Positions 42,588 through 47,209 of a stretch of 64,000 nucleotides of DNA are shown piece after piece (within the stretch, counting starts at the first letter, position 1; each line of letters starts with the position of its first letter). The notes beneath the pieces were generated by a model. It worked only from the letters and a program-made list of their open reading frames with translations, was not told the origin of the DNA and made no database searches. The DNA is from Flavobacteriaceae bacterium PS02337 (GTDB lineage: Bacteria > Bacteroidota > Bacteroidia > Flavobacteriales > Flavobacteriaceae), in NCBI GenBank assembly GCA_029959285.1, contig JASCOE010000001.1, forward strand, positions 1 through 64,000. The letters run 5' to 3'. The translations under genes and the position numbers were made by a program.

Positions 42588-43670
42588 TTATGCGTTGAAA
42601 ATTTTCTCTTGGTGACCAATACTTTCTTGGTGAATTGCTTTGAACATTCTTAAAACGAATTCTTCAGTAAGACCTTTTTTCTCGCCTTCCAAAATCATTT
42701 TTCCTAAGATTTCATTCCAACGGTTGTTTTGAAGAATCGCAACGTTTGCATCTTTTTTCACCTGACCAATTTCGTCAGCCACTTTCATACGTTTTCCTAA
42801 CAATTCTAATAAGTTAGCATCCAAAACATCGATGTTAGCTCTTAATTTTGTCATTTTTTGGCTGTACTCATCTGTAGTATCATCCGTTTTTCTGATAGTC
42901 AAATCTTTAATGATTTGTTTCAAAGAATCTGGAGTTACTTGCTGCGCAGCATCAGACCAAGCGTTATCTGGATCGAAGTGCGTTTCGATAATCATACCAT
43001 CGTAATTCAAATCTAAAGCCTCTTGAGTTACTTCAAAAATCATTTTACGATCTCCAGTAATATGAGATGGATCGATGATTAATGGTAAATCAGGGAATTT
43101 ATTTTGCAATTCGATAGCAATCTGCCATTCTGGAATGTTTCTGTATTTTGTTTTTTCGTAAGTAGAGAAACCTCTGTGGATAACTCCTAACTTCTCGATT
43201 CCAGCCATATGTAAACGCTCAACACCACCTAACCATAAAGCTAAATCTGGGTTTACAGGGTTTTTAACCAAAACGATTTTATCAGTTCCTTTTAAAGTAT
43301 CAGCAATTTCCTGAACAGCGAAAGGGTTTGCCGTTGTACGTGCACCAACCCATAATACGTCGATATCGTGTTCTAAAGCCAGTTTACAGTGCGCTGCAGT
43401 TGCAACTTCAGTTCCCATTAATAAACCAGTTTCAGCTTTTGCTTTTTGTAACCATTTCAAACCAATTTCTCCAACACCTTCAAATCCTCCCGGACGTGTT
43501 CTCGGTTTCCAGATTCCGGCTCTGAAAACACTTACTTTTGAATTTTTCAATTCGTGAGCAATTTTCAATACTTGATCTTCAGTTTCTGCACTACATGGTC
43601 CAGCTATCACAAGTGGGTGATTTAAATTGAAATCTTCTAACCACTTTCTCATTTCTTTCTTATTTTCCAT
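42588..43670 (-). CDS. Bifunctional DAHP synthase / chorismate mutase
   Basis: The 360-residue fusion has a KDSA-like DAHP synthase (about 1-255; motifs AGPCSAETEDQ, GIWKPRTRPGGFEG, IDPSHITGDR). A type II chorismate mutase follows (about 262-350; LRANIDVLDANLLELLGKRM). It supplies the first committed step of the shikimate pathway and the step chorismate to prephenate. Fusion in this order is common in Bacteroidota. It is the last gene of the pheA operon, 13 nt after tyrA, and so lies under the proposed attenuator. Confidence 0.94.
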   Translation of the reverse strand: MENKKEMRKWLEDFNLNHPLVIAGPCSAETEDQVLKIAHELKNSKVSVFRAGIWKPRTRPGGFEGVGEIGLKWLQKAKAETGLLMGTEVATAAHCKLALEHDIDVLWVGARTTANPFAVQEIADTLKGTDKIVLVKNPVNPDLALWLGGVERLHMAGIEKLGVIHRGFSTYEKTKYRNIPEWQIAIELQNKFPDLPLIIDPSHITGDRKMIFEVTQEALDLNYDGMIIETHFDPDNAWSDAAQQVTPDSLKQIIKDLTIRKTDDTTDEYSQKMTKLRANIDVLDANLLELLGKRMKVADEIGQVKKDANVAILQNNRWNEILGKMILEGEKKGLTEEFVLRMFKAIHQESIGHQEKIFNA

Positions 43671-43683
43671 CTTAATTCTAATT

Positions 43684-44544
43684 TTACTTTTTAGTTGTTG
43701 TTAATCCGTTTAGTATTTCTTTTATTTTATTTGTGCTTTCCATTTCTTCAAAAATGGCATTATAATCTTCTTCTTTCAACAAATCCCTAAACCGACTGAG
43801 ATTTGAAATATATTCTTCTAATGTTTCCAGAACGTGTTCTTTATTCTGCTTAAAAATCGGCGTCCACATTGCTGGCGAACTTTTTGCTAAACGAACCGTG
43901 CTTTCAAATCCACTTCCCGCCATATCAAAAATATCCTGTTCGTCTTTTTCTTTGTTCATTACCGTTTTACCGAGCATAAACGAACTGATGTGCGACAAAT
44001 GCGAAACGTAAGCAATATGTTTATCGTGTGAAGTCGGGTCCATATATCGAATCCTCATTCCGATTTCGCTGAAAAGTTTTAATGCTTTTTCCTGCAATTT
44101 GAAAGTGGTTTTTTCCACTTCGCAAATAATGTTTGTTTTTCCTTTAAACAAACCTTTTATTGCCGCCGAAGGTCCTGAAAACTCCGTTCCTGCTATTGGA
44201 TGCGTGGCAATAAAATTTCTTCTTTTTGGGTGATTGGCAACTGCTTCACAAATTGGTTTTTTCGTCGAACCTACTTCAAAAACAATTGTTTTATCTCCTA
44301 CCGAATCCAGAACTTTTGGTAAAACCGTCAATGCCACATCAACCGGAACCGAAACGATTACAAAATCGGCTTCAGCCAAATCTTCAAAACTTCCTGCTTC
44401 ATCGATAACTCCTAAATTAATGGCTTCCTGCAAATGTTTTTCGTTGCTATCGATTCCAAAAATTGTCGAATCAGGATGTTGGTCTTTGATGTCCAGCACC
44501 ATCGAACCGCCTATTAATCCTATTCCTATTACGTATACTTTCAT
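43684..44544 (-). CDS. tyrA: Prephenate dehydrogenase
   Basis: The 286-residue NAD-dependent enzyme makes 4-hydroxyphenylpyruvate from prephenate. The dinucleotide motif GIGLIGGSMVLDI is at 6-18, the catalytic-region HPIAGTEFSGP at about 115-125, and HDKHIAYVSHLSHI further on. There is no ACT domain. It lies between the aminotransferase and DAHP synthase genes. The 92-nt gap upstream contains an inverted repeat. Confidence 0.94.
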   Translation of the reverse strand: MKVYVIGIGLIGGSMVLDIKDQHPDSTIFGIDSNEKHLQEAINLGVIDEAGSFEDLAEADFVIVSVPVDVALTVLPKVLDSVGDKTIVFEVGSTKKPICEAVANHPKRRNFIATHPIAGTEFSGPSAAIKGLFKGKTNIICEVEKTTFKLQEKALKLFSEIGMRIRYMDPTSHDKHIAYVSHLSHISSFMLGKTVMNKEKDEQDIFDMAGSGFESTVRLAKSSPAMWTPIFKQNKEHVLETLEEYISNLSRFRDLLKEEDYNAIFEEMESTNKIKEILNGLTTTKK

Positions 44545-44636: not shown

Positions 44637-45782
44637 CTAAAATCGGTCTATCGCTTCCTGTACTTTTTCTTCTTTCACACACAATGAGAATCGGATATAA
44701 CCTTCGCCGTTGCTTCCAAAAATGGTTCCCGGTGTAATGAAAATATGTTTCTCATATAATATTTCGTCAATGAACTTCTCTGCTGATTCGATTCCTTCCG
44801 GAAGTTTTGCCCAAACAAAAAGCCCAACTCCTTCTTTATACACTTTACAGTTTAACTTTTCAGCTAATTTCTCCGTTAATTCTCTACGGCGTCTGTAAAT
44901 TTTGTTTTGATCTTCGAACCAAGATTTATCACATTTTAAAGCTGCAATTGCACCTTTTTGAATTCCGTAGAACATTCCGCTGTCCATGTTGCTTTTTACT
45001 TTTAGAACTGCATCGATAATTTCAGGATTTCCTAAAACCATCCCTACTCTCCAGCCGGCCATGTTGAAAGTTTTACTTAAAGAATTCAATTCTAAAGCCA
45101 CATCTTTCGCTCCTTCAACTTGCAACAAACTCATCGGATTATCATTCAAAACAAAACTATACGGATTGTCGTTAATCAATAATATATTGTGTTTTTTAGC
45201 AAAAGATACCAATTTTTCAAATAACGCTAAACTTCCTCTTGCTCCTGTCGGCATGTGCGGATATCCCAGCCACATTATTTTTACTTTCGAAAGATCCAGT
45301 TTTTCAAGAGCTTCAAAATCTGGTTCCCATCCGTTTTCTTCTTTCAAATCATAATAAACTGGAACTGCCTGAACCAAATTGGTTACCGAAGTATAAGTTG
45401 GATAACCTGGATTCGGAATTAAAACGTGATCGCCTTCATTTAAAAATGCTAACGAAATTTGCATAATTCCTTCTTTCGAACCCATAAGAGGTAAAATCTC
45501 ATTATTCGGATTCACTTCAACACCAAACTGATCTTTATAAAAATCTGCCATCGCTTGTCTCATTTCTGGCAATCCCTGATAGCTTTGATAACCATGCCCG
45601 TTTTCGTCTTGAATTGCCGCAGCTACTGCTTCAATTACTGCTTTTGACGGACTCAAATCAGGACTTCCAATTCCCATATTGATGATCGATTTTCCTTCAG
45701 ACATCAACTGACGAACTTCTCTTAATTTTGATGAGAAGTAGTATTCTTCAACTGTGTCTAATCGTTTTGCTGTTGTAATCAT
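44637..45782 (-). CDS. PLP-dependent class I/II aminotransferase
   Basis: A 381-residue fold-type I aminotransferase with the PLP-lysine motif SLSKTFNMAGWRVGM (Lys about 235), the upstream NPGYPTY and IMWLGYPHMPTGA segments, and a C-terminal GEGYIRFSLC. From its place between pheA and tyrA it probably transaminates phenylpyruvate and 4-hydroxyphenylpyruvate. The sequence also resembles aspartate and LL-diaminopimelate aminotransferases, so substrate range is inferred from context. Confidence 0.88.
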   Translation of the reverse strand: MITTAKRLDTVEEYYFSSKLREVRQLMSEGKSIINMGIGSPDLSPSKAVIEAVAAAIQDENGHGYQSYQGLPEMRQAMADFYKDQFGVEVNPNNEILPLMGSKEGIMQISLAFLNEGDHVLIPNPGYPTYTSVTNLVQAVPVYYDLKEENGWEPDFEALEKLDLSKVKIMWLGYPHMPTGARGSLALFEKLVSFAKKHNILLINDNPYSFVLNDNPMSLLQVEGAKDVALELNSLSKTFNMAGWRVGMVLGNPEIIDAVLKVKSNMDSGMFYGIQKGAIAALKCDKSWFEDQNKIYRRRRELTEKLAEKLNCKVYKEGVGLFVWAKLPEGIESAEKFIDEILYEKHIFITPGTIFGSNGEGYIRFSLCVKEEKVQEAIDRF

Positions 45783-45862: not shown

Positions 45863-46702
45863 TTATGACTGAGCCAAAGGTTTTGTATTTTTATATTCTC
45901 CCAACACTTTAAAATATTCTGCCATTATGTTTAATAATGCTTTGGCTTTTGCAAAATCTTCGTATTTTTCAAATGTTACGTCTACGAAAAATGAATATTT
46001 CCAAGGCGTTTCAATTTTTGGAAGCGACTGGATTTTTGTCAAATTCAGTTTGCAGTCGCTCATTACATTTAAAACCGCTGCTAAGCTTCCTCTTTTGTGA
46101 TCCAATTCAAACTTAATAGACGCTCTATTGATTTCGCTTTCTGGCAAAAATGAATTTTGCTTTTTAATGATTACGAAACGCGTCATATTGTTTTTAATTG
46201 TTTGAATCGATGACGCGATAATATCTAAATCATACATTTCAGAAGCTGTTACACTTGCAATTGCAGCAATTCCTGTCAATTGTTTTTCCTGAATTCTTCT
46301 TGCTGTTTCAGCTGTATCTTTATCCTCAATCAATTTGATATTTGGATATTGTTTCAAGAAATCCATACACTGCAAAAGTGCCATTGGGTGCGAATGAACT
46401 TCTTTTATATCTTCAATTTGTTGACCTTTTAAAGCCATTAAATTCTGCTGAATGTTTAAATAATGCTCTCCAATAATGTGCAAATTATTCTTGTCAATCA
46501 AAGCATAATTCGGAATAATCGGACCTGCAATAGAATTTTCGATCGCCATAACAGCTTGATCCGATTTTCCGGCAATAAGGCTGTCGATCAATTCTTCAAA
46601 AGACAAACATTCATCAATATCCACATTTTCAGAGAAATACTCTTTCACAACCTGATGATGAAAAGATCCTTTAATACCTTGTATTGCAATTTTCGTTGTC
46701 AT
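45863..46702 (-). CDS. pheA: Prephenate dehydratase with ACT domain
   Basis: The 279-residue enzyme makes phenylpyruvate from prephenate. It has the periplasmic-binding-like catalytic fold (about 1-180), with the catalytic Thr in NMTRFVII. A C-terminal ACT domain (about 195-270; KFELDHKRGSLAAVLNVM) likely binds phenylalanine for feedback inhibition. It is the first gene of the operon. The leader upstream carries a Phe/Tyr-rich short ORF and a terminator, so it is probably also controlled by attenuation. Confidence 0.94.
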   Translation of the reverse strand: MTTKIAIQGIKGSFHHQVVKEYFSENVDIDECLSFEELIDSLIAGKSDQAVMAIENSIAGPIIPNYALIDKNNLHIIGEHYLNIQQNLMALKGQQIEDIKEVHSHPMALLQCMDFLKQYPNIKLIEDKDTAETARRIQEKQLTGIAAIASVTASEMYDLDIIASSIQTIKNNMTRFVIIKKQNSFLPESEINRASIKFELDHKRGSLAAVLNVMSDCKLNLTKIQSLPKIETPWKYSFFVDVTFEKYEDFAKAKALLNIMAEYFKVLGEYKNTKPLAQS

Positions 46703-46715
46703 ATATTCAAAAAAA

Positions 46716-46737
46716 AATCCTGATTTGCATCAGGATT
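46716..46737 (-). terminator. Attenuator terminator upstream of pheA
   Basis: On the minus strand AATCCTGAT, GCAA, ATCAGGATT is followed by eight T's, and the pheA ATG lies 13 nt beyond the stem. A terminator just before a start codon is only useful if it is conditional. The 5' arm region (46732-46739) is exactly complementary to 46784-46791 inside the leader ORF, which gives a competing antiterminator. Confidence 0.88.
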
Positions 46738-46768
46738 GTATATTAGTTTTATTTGTCTTTTATATTTT

Positions 46769-46849
46769 TCAAATAACCATAGCACAATCCTCACTTCTAC
46801 TAAAGAAGAAATAAAAGTTGTTGCTAAAATAAAAACGGTTAGTTGCCAT
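46769..46849 (-). CDS. Phe/Tyr-rich leader peptide of the pheA operon
   Basis: A 26-codon ORF with ATG at 46847-46849 and TGA at 46769-46771. Its peptide starts MATNR, then has FYF, SNN, FYFFF, and ends SRSEDCAMVI. That makes six Phe and two Tyr, with eight of the eleven codons 6-16 being Phe or Tyr. Codons E20-C22 contain AGGATTGT, which pairs perfectly with the terminator's 5' side. The SNN codons (AGCAACAA) can pair with TTGTGCT overlapping the same segment. A strong promoter lies about 30 nt upstream. The function matches E. coli pheL, but the sequence is unrelated. Confidence 0.82.
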   Translation of the reverse strand: MATNRFYFSNNFYFFFSRSEDCAMVI

Positions 46850-46878
46850 TTTGTTTGTGTTATTTTGTAAATTCTCTG

Positions 46879-46909
46879 CGAATGTATAAATTATTTTCAG
46901 CGCACCAAA
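46879..46909 (-). promoter_or_regulatory. Promoter of the pheA operon
   Basis: On the minus strand TTTG (46906-46909), exactly 19 nt, then TACATTCG (46879-46886), which matches seven of eight positions of the TAnnTTTG consensus. The predicted start (near 46875) leaves a 5' leader that holds the short Phe/Tyr ORF and the attenuator hairpin. Upstream of it, 46910-47064 shows only short direct repeats (CTAAGGTTCTTAG, 47016-47046). Confidence 0.75.
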
Positions 46910-47064
46910 AAAAATAATGCATTTTATGAAACAAAAAAGGATTTCTTAACAAATTTAGCAGGTTTTGTATGATAATATAAAAATAAGGGCTTAAAATGAG
47001 AATATTAAAATGAGGTTCTAAGGTTCTTAGTTGCTAAGGTGCTAAGGTTTTTTTCATTTTGGCT

Positions 47065-47197
47065 GAATTGCCTTCAGCTTTAGCTGGAGGTTTAGAGATT
47101 GACATTGTTCTGGCTTTAGCCAAAATCTTTGAAGTTATTTGGCTAAAGCCCAATCTTGTTCTTTTTTCATACCTCCAGCTAAAGCTGGAGGCAATTC
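47065..47197. repeat. Nested inverted repeat with CCTCCAGCTAAAGCTGGAGG
   Basis: Arms of 27 bp (47065-47091 and 47171-47197, one mismatch) read GAATTGCCTTCAGCTTTAGC on the left. Inside is a second pair (TGGCTTTAGCCAAA and TTTGGCTAAAGCC). Each arm is itself palindromic. A short plus-strand frame across it is produced by the repeat and is not considered a gene. The element sits at the 3' end of the DUF1501 gene. Confidence 0.85.
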
Positions 47198-47209
47198 ATA
47201 AAGATTTAA

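Follow-up and report, generated by a model that had tools for sequence, protein, structure and literature searches.

Leader-peptide attenuation is a textbook mechanism for the control of amino-acid operons. In the pheL-pheA system of Escherichia coli, a Phe-rich leader peptide, mutually exclusive hairpins and a terminator precede pheA. The locus described here is alike in that a Phe-rich peptide, predicted exclusive hairpins and a terminator are also found ahead of pheA. Lopatovskaya et al. reportedly predicted attenuators of amino-acid operons by comparative genomics in 2010, with a leader peptide and a terminator/antiterminator, and a study of Actinobacteria is said to have predicted amino-acid operon attenuators with the same parts. 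Both sets of predictions would share the leader peptide and the terminator/antiterminator with the present locus.

Within the Flavobacteriaceae, a structured 5' element before pheA is listed for Flavobacterium psychrophilum and also for other genera of the family in PMC9723704, whose authors see strong clues for leader peptide attenuation ahead of amino-acid operons. That element shares its gene and its genus with the leader studied here. The main-text section of PMC9723704 gives the element without its anatomy, Phe/Tyr codons, antiterminator or spread, and these are described below for the present leader.

Results

The pheA operon and its leader ORF

In the window (the whole 64,000-nt stretch of DNA analysed, from Flavobacteriaceae bacterium PS02337), four genes preceded by a short ORF lie on the minus strand (Table 1). 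The Pfam and NCBIfam assignments to prephenate dehydratase, aminotransferase, prephenate dehydrogenase and DAHP synthase/chorismate mutase agree with a first-pass annotation, which had placed all of the downstream genes in Phe and Tyr synthesis. The ACT domain of pheA scored 20.6 bits, under the cut-off of 27, and the NCBIfam prephenate dehydratase models scored pheA under their curated cut-offs. Spacing and strand suggest that the four genes form one transcript.

The same annotation had described an ORF of 26 codons, six of them for Phe and two for Tyr. This ORF is present, with Phe at codons 6, 8, 12, 14, 15 and 16, Tyr at codons 7 and 13, and no Trp codon. The ORF clusters codons of the amino acids made by the enzymes of the operon. 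Across the two strands of the window, seven aromatics in 14 codons are reached by four short ORFs with an ATG start, and a terminator follows the leader ORF only. The proposed promoter, TTTG-N19-TACATTCG, also reads as claimed; we take the two elements to be a flavobacterial-type promoter motif, which gives a predicted start only. The coordinates previously assigned to the leader elements are correct.

Table 1. Coordinates of the leader elements and operon genes in the window, in order of transcription.
Feature	Position	Strand	Basis
TTTG, -33-like element, flavobacterial-type promoter	46906..46909	-	read directly
TACATTCG, -7-like element (TAnnTTnG)	46879..46886	-	read directly; 19 nt 3' of TTTG
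Leader peptide ORF, MATNRFYFSNNFYFFFSRSEDCAMVI and stop, 26 codons	46769..46849	-	read directly; conserved across family
Protector hairpin (predicted): segment 1, 46821-46807, with 46798-46784; sequesters segment 2	46784..46821	-	predicted fold
Codons 12-16, FYFFF, putative stall site	46802..46816	-	aromatic positions kept in 121 leaders
Segment 2, antiterminator strand AGGATTGT, codons 20-22	46784..46791	-	read directly; duplex energies; covariation
Composite antiterminator hairpin (segment 2:3 and inner helix)	46732..46791	-	-14.4 kcal/mol, 0/200 shuffles as stable
Segment 3: antiterminator 3' strand, 46739-46732; terminator 5' arm, 46737-46729	46729..46739	-	sequence, terminator scan, duplex energies
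Segment 4: terminator 3' arm, 46724-46716; T tract, 46717-46709	46709..46724	-	read, scan, fold
pheA, prephenate dehydratase	45863..46702	-	Pfam PF00800, E 1.1e-57; ATG at 46702
Class I/II aminotransferase	44637..45782	-	Pfam PF00155, E 3.2e-65
tyrA, prephenate dehydrogenase	43684..44544	-	NF006307, 404.9 bits, cut-off 295 exceeded
DAHP synthase/chorismate mutase fusion	42588..43670	-	Pfam PF00793 and PF01817, both above cut-off

Distribution of the leader

The pheA upstream regions of 124 genomes from 123 genera, the window's included, were compared. This family sample was drawn from 268 genomes with a match among 299 searched and consists of the window, 63 genomes taken from the head of the pheA ranking and 60 with lower scores, with membership of the Flavobacteriaceae judged from named relatives. 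A short ORF rich in aromatic codons followed by a terminator precedes pheA in 121 of the 124, and the combination was not found in three (L199, L213 and L246). Among 372 dinucleotide shuffles of the same regions, 16 held such an ORF and 25 a terminator, and none held both in order. Similarly, no ORF with terminator was matched in 388,918 nt of non-pheA DNA around other genes (both strands, with some overlap). In 112 of the 121 genomes a TANNTTNG lies at most 80 nt 5' of the leader ATG, as against 393 of 2420 mononucleotide shuffles. The short Phe/Tyr-rich ORF, the terminator and the covarying antiterminator pairing described below are the features that the first-pass annotation had proposed to look for in relatives.

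Within the genus, the leader ORF and terminator are carried by the window and by all 27 usable relatives among L002-L030; L026 and L029 were dropped for having less than 150 nt of upstream sequence, and these counts leave out eight further same-genus pheA matches. The named loci L031-L110 carry both elements in 80 of 80 cases, nearly all of them titled Flavobacterium, mutually close relatives and partly from the same genomes. The leader is also present at the same-genus loci L192 and L193 and absent from L182 and L186. The pheA genes of the latter two are divergent (47% and 41% identity), perhaps the result of gene replacement.

In other families of the order, 8 of 16 loci qualify and 8 do not. 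At one of the loci from another family (L187, genome G083), two tandem aromatic-rich stretches precede pheA, each with a terminator-like hairpin by eye; this is possibly a doubled attenuator, the start of whose first stretch lies outside the DNA read. Outside the order, 34 genomes of the class had a match, and 33 were examined after a partial match (G522) was dropped. The leader qualifies in 19 of the 33 at a relaxed cut of six aromatics in 14 codons and in 15 at the original cut, and 14 lack it; none of 320 shuffles of 32 regions qualified. Three loci of the class (L276, L288 and L291) have a strong leader with a terminator that is imperfect by eye. Judged from these comparisons of sequence, the element is at least family-wide and very probably older than the family.

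Terminator, antiterminator and covariation

Between the leader ORF and pheA sits a predicted intrinsic terminator, AATCCTGAT-GCAA-ATCAGGATT (46737-46716, minus strand), a 9-bp hairpin running into a tract of T's, with 6 nt between the end of the tract and the pheA ATG. The hairpin and its place are as previously proposed, and the count of eight T's needs correction, since the tract has nine in total, seven of which lie past the stem. A terminator scan of 46600-47100 returned one site, with 0.1 expected. Folding, which the first-pass annotation had suggested as a check, gave supporting values: the whole leader RNA is more stable than its shuffles (z -3.8), and the terminator alone, at -10.8 to -11.1 kcal/mol, has a z of -5.7.

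The same hairpin could in principle act on translation, by blocking initiation near the pheA start until a stalled ribosome opens it. Its position in the window, where it ends 13 nt before the ATG (46716 versus 46702), would suit such control. However, the hairpin of many genera lies too far away to mask a start codon, with its end 50-134 nt ahead of the pheA match, and a T-rich tail stands behind it in the 121 family leaders, where it formed part of the selection criterion. We consider translational control improbable as the explanation of this leader and treat the hairpin as a terminator.

The terminator shares segment 3 with a predicted antiterminator. As the earlier reading had it, AGGATTGT in segment 2 is the exact complement of ACAATCCT in segment 3. 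The antiterminator exceeds these 8 nt, being a composite hairpin with an inner helix of ten pairs. The stretch 46792-46729 has a z of -5.0, and a shorter stretch, 46791-46737, a z of -0.2. The composite hairpin is more stable than the terminator, and by its predicted fold it can form ahead of terminator completion.

In the family, the segment 2:3 duplex averages -12.7 kcal/mol, compared with -6.8 kcal/mol when segment 2 is shuffled, and it beats all 20 of its own shuffles in 82 of 121 leaders. Duplex energies were used because exact-complement length (mean 6.0 nt versus 4.8 nt in shuffles) is on its own a weak test. Cognate partners in the 121 genomes pair at -11.26 kcal/mol as against -8.42 kcal/mol for partners taken from other genera, with none of 2000 permutations as low. 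At 28 other loci, which lie outside the 121-genome set and include one same-genus locus, L192, the values are -14.14 for cognate and -9.62 kcal/mol for non-cognate partners, again with 0 of 2000 permutations as low. The change can be followed through segments 2, 3 and 4, which read AGGATTGT/ACAATCCT/AGGATT in the window, GGGATTG/CAATCCC/GGGATT in L013, CGGGACT/AGTCCCG/CGGGACT in L118 and CCGGGTT/AACCCGG/CCGGGTT in L250.

Across the 27 aligned sequences of the genus, one outer pair occurs as A-U (15), G-C (9) or G-U (3), and segment 4 follows. RNAalifold found 11 antiterminator pairs in this alignment, 2 of them changed on both sides, with a small covariation term (-0.56) because most pairs are invariant within the genus; for this reason the permutation test across genera was used instead. 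The antiterminator pairing, which excludes the terminator, is conserved by covariation.

A third structure, the protector hairpin, is predicted to sequester segment 2. In the window it folds at -10.1 kcal/mol (z -2.2), and 7 of 200 shuffles are equally stable. In the family its mean z is -1.5, with 75 of 121 leaders below -1, under a definition of the last aromatic codon that misplaced this codon in several leaders, the window's included. Support for the protector hairpin across the family, as folded, is only moderate.

Leader codons and ribosome geometry

The 121 leaders were aligned on their last aromatic codon, which makes position 0 aromatic by construction. Over positions -5 to -1 the share of leaders with Phe, Tyr or Trp is 85, 93, 97, 99 and 98%, percentages that lean upward, given this alignment and the choice of leaders for aromatic content. 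The share is 0-1% over positions +1 to +5. At position +8, in or after segment 2, an aromatic codon recurs in 54% of the 67 leaders that are long enough, and it is mostly Tyr. The codons vary synonymously (TTT 427, TTC 215, TAT 301 and TAC 74 in the 121 leaders); therefore the amino acid class is what is kept. Compared with E. coli pheL and the Rfam family RF01859, the flavobacterial leaders differ in having Tyr in 121 of 121, Trp in the cores of 83 of 121, and a Shine-Dalgarno-like 4-mer in only 1 of 121. Given the Trp codons, much of the family may have a sensor for aromatic amino acids in general. The first-pass annotation had let its reading stand or fall with the conservation of the Phe/Tyr codons and of the complementarity in relatives, and both were found conserved in the 121 leaders.

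Close relatives conserve the peptide sequence well, as would be expected if the ORF encoded a functional small protein and the terminator were separate and constitutive. Yet leader length and C-terminus vary so widely that the start of segment 2 ranges between 25 nt ahead of the stop codon and 8 nt past it, while the aromatic class and the spacing to segment 2 persist and segment 2 covaries with the terminator. A functional small protein is on these grounds an extremely unlikely account of the locus.

The distance from the last aromatic codon to segment 2 is nearly fixed. It measures 7-13 nt in 110 of the 121 family leaders (mode 11; shuffles 16%) and in 23 of the 28 other loci (shuffles 12%), and its standard deviation is 1.9, compared with 6.5 for the position of the stop codon. 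Such a distance, and a single codon class with synonymous variation, would not be needed by a ligand aptamer. The leader is highly structured (see above), as an RNA that binds a ligand or a tRNA (a riboswitch, a T-box or a protein-bound leader) with an incidental short ORF would be, but no Rfam family reached its gathering score in the leader region. Riboswitches, T-boxes and known Rfam leaders were rejected on this basis, with all 14 weak matches far under their cut-offs; for the Phe_leader family RF01859 the score was 17.9 bits against a gathering score of 55 (E 1.7). We regard a ligand- or tRNA-binding RNA as very unlikely here.

A ribosome with a codon in its A site should have its front edge about 10 nt beyond that codon, and the 7-13 nt spacing puts the start of segment 2 at this edge. 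With this assumed footprint, a ribosome stalled on the last aromatic codon would leave at least 80% of segment 2 free in 112 of 121 leaders, and one at the stop codon would cover half of it or more in 115 of 121. The stall codons are placed so as to leave the antiterminator free of the stalled ribosome, and the earlier proposal that stalling frees the antiterminator fits most leaders. The window's own leader scored as 0 free and 0 covered in this count, probably through extra upstream pairs taken as core, and its geometry was instead counted by hand from coordinates. Exactly 10 nt separate codon 16 (46804-46802) from AGGATTGT (46791), and by these coordinates segment 2 is predicted to be free upon a stall at codon 16. 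The companion proposal, that the antiterminator is covered once the ribosome arrives at the stop codon, fits most of the family leaders and is only partly true of the window's, where a 15-nt reach from the stop (46771) takes in only 3 of 8 bases. The off state of the window's leader would have to rely more on the predicted protector hairpin.

Other leaders and elements of the genome

Elsewhere in this genome, his, trp, ilv and met genes are also preceded by similar-looking leaders. Upstream of hisG is a leader ORF with a run of His codons (L297, 2839-2898), upstream of ilvD one with a run of Ile/Val codons (L297, 17679-17753), and upstream of trpE one with WWW (L298, 786-730, minus strand), where the scan gave a longer ORF in that frame. 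Behind each of the three come a terminator and what may be an antiterminator segment. No copy of the leader was seen by eye upstream of the pheS domain match, including about 250 nt before the likely gene start.

A Met/Cys-rich leader ORF, MKAIAKRNMMCCKMMQNCIPHCCCQK (L296, 153-233), is followed by a terminator (264-294) and precedes a region containing homoserine dehydrogenases and an O-acetylhomoserine sulfhydrylase-like gene, names that are in part presumptive. Among the best-scoring 30 loci of 60 genomes, a Met-rich leader with a terminator-like hairpin was seen by eye at 4 of the 29 others (L303, L313, L321 and L327). A methionine-sensing leader peptide would be unusual.

Two further elements were recorded in the window. 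An imperfect palindrome at 47064-47198, with 61-nt arms that are 77% complementary, belongs to a dispersed repeat family that matches the genome at least 39 times; several of these sites were counted on both strands, and 40 of 75 candidates were scored. A Flavo-1 RNA motif (Rfam RF01705) lies at 788-867 on the plus strand (78.6 bits).

Discussion

The first-pass annotation proposed a pheL-type attenuator, and a conserved aromatic ORF, a terminator, a covarying antiterminator and a near-fixed spacing support that reading. On anatomy, conservation, covariation and spacing, all taken from the sequence, we consider it highly likely that the leader is a ribosome-mediated, pheL-like transcription attenuator through which the operon would respond to charged Phe and Tyr tRNA. 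The genes of the operon would probably be switched on only under shortage of Phe or Tyr.

In the mechanism that we infer, transcription start, leader translation, termination and the amino-acid response are all predicted steps. When Phe- and Tyr-tRNA are plentiful, the ribosome would pass the aromatic codons, and segment 2 would be masked by the ribosome and afterwards by the protector hairpin. With segment 2 masked, the terminator would form and transcription would stop about 160 nt from its start. When Phe or Tyr is scarce, the ribosome would stall in codons 12-16 with segment 2 just beyond its front edge. The exposed segment 2 would then pair with segment 3 while segment 4 is still to be transcribed, and RNA polymerase would enter pheA.

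Leader anatomy, spread in the family and class, and the spacing rule were not found in print among open-access papers, supplements excluded. Since a structured pheA element is already listed in the part of PMC9723704 that deals with it, the kind of system was already known, and the present finding is a detailed confirmation and extension and no new kind of system.

The comparative evidence points to classic ribosome-mediated attenuation as widespread before pheA, in a group for which the open-access papers searched say little about it. The ribosomes of these bacteria largely do without Shine-Dalgarno sites. If the attenuator acts as proposed, RNA polymerase must have the lead ribosome close behind it in these leaders, which nearly all lack Shine-Dalgarno-like sites, and transcription-translation coupling in this group would be directly testable with a simple reporter. 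Additionally, the near-fixed spacing between stall site and antiterminator provides a rule for finding switches for other amino acids. We give an even chance to a broader picture, in which the pheA attenuator senses aromatic amino acids generally (Phe and Tyr, plus Trp in roughly two of every three family leaders examined) and dates back to the ancestor of the class. In this picture it would belong, with the his, trp, ilv and unusual Met/Cys leaders, to a set through which these bacteria regulate the synthesis of amino acids by coupling transcription tightly to translation.
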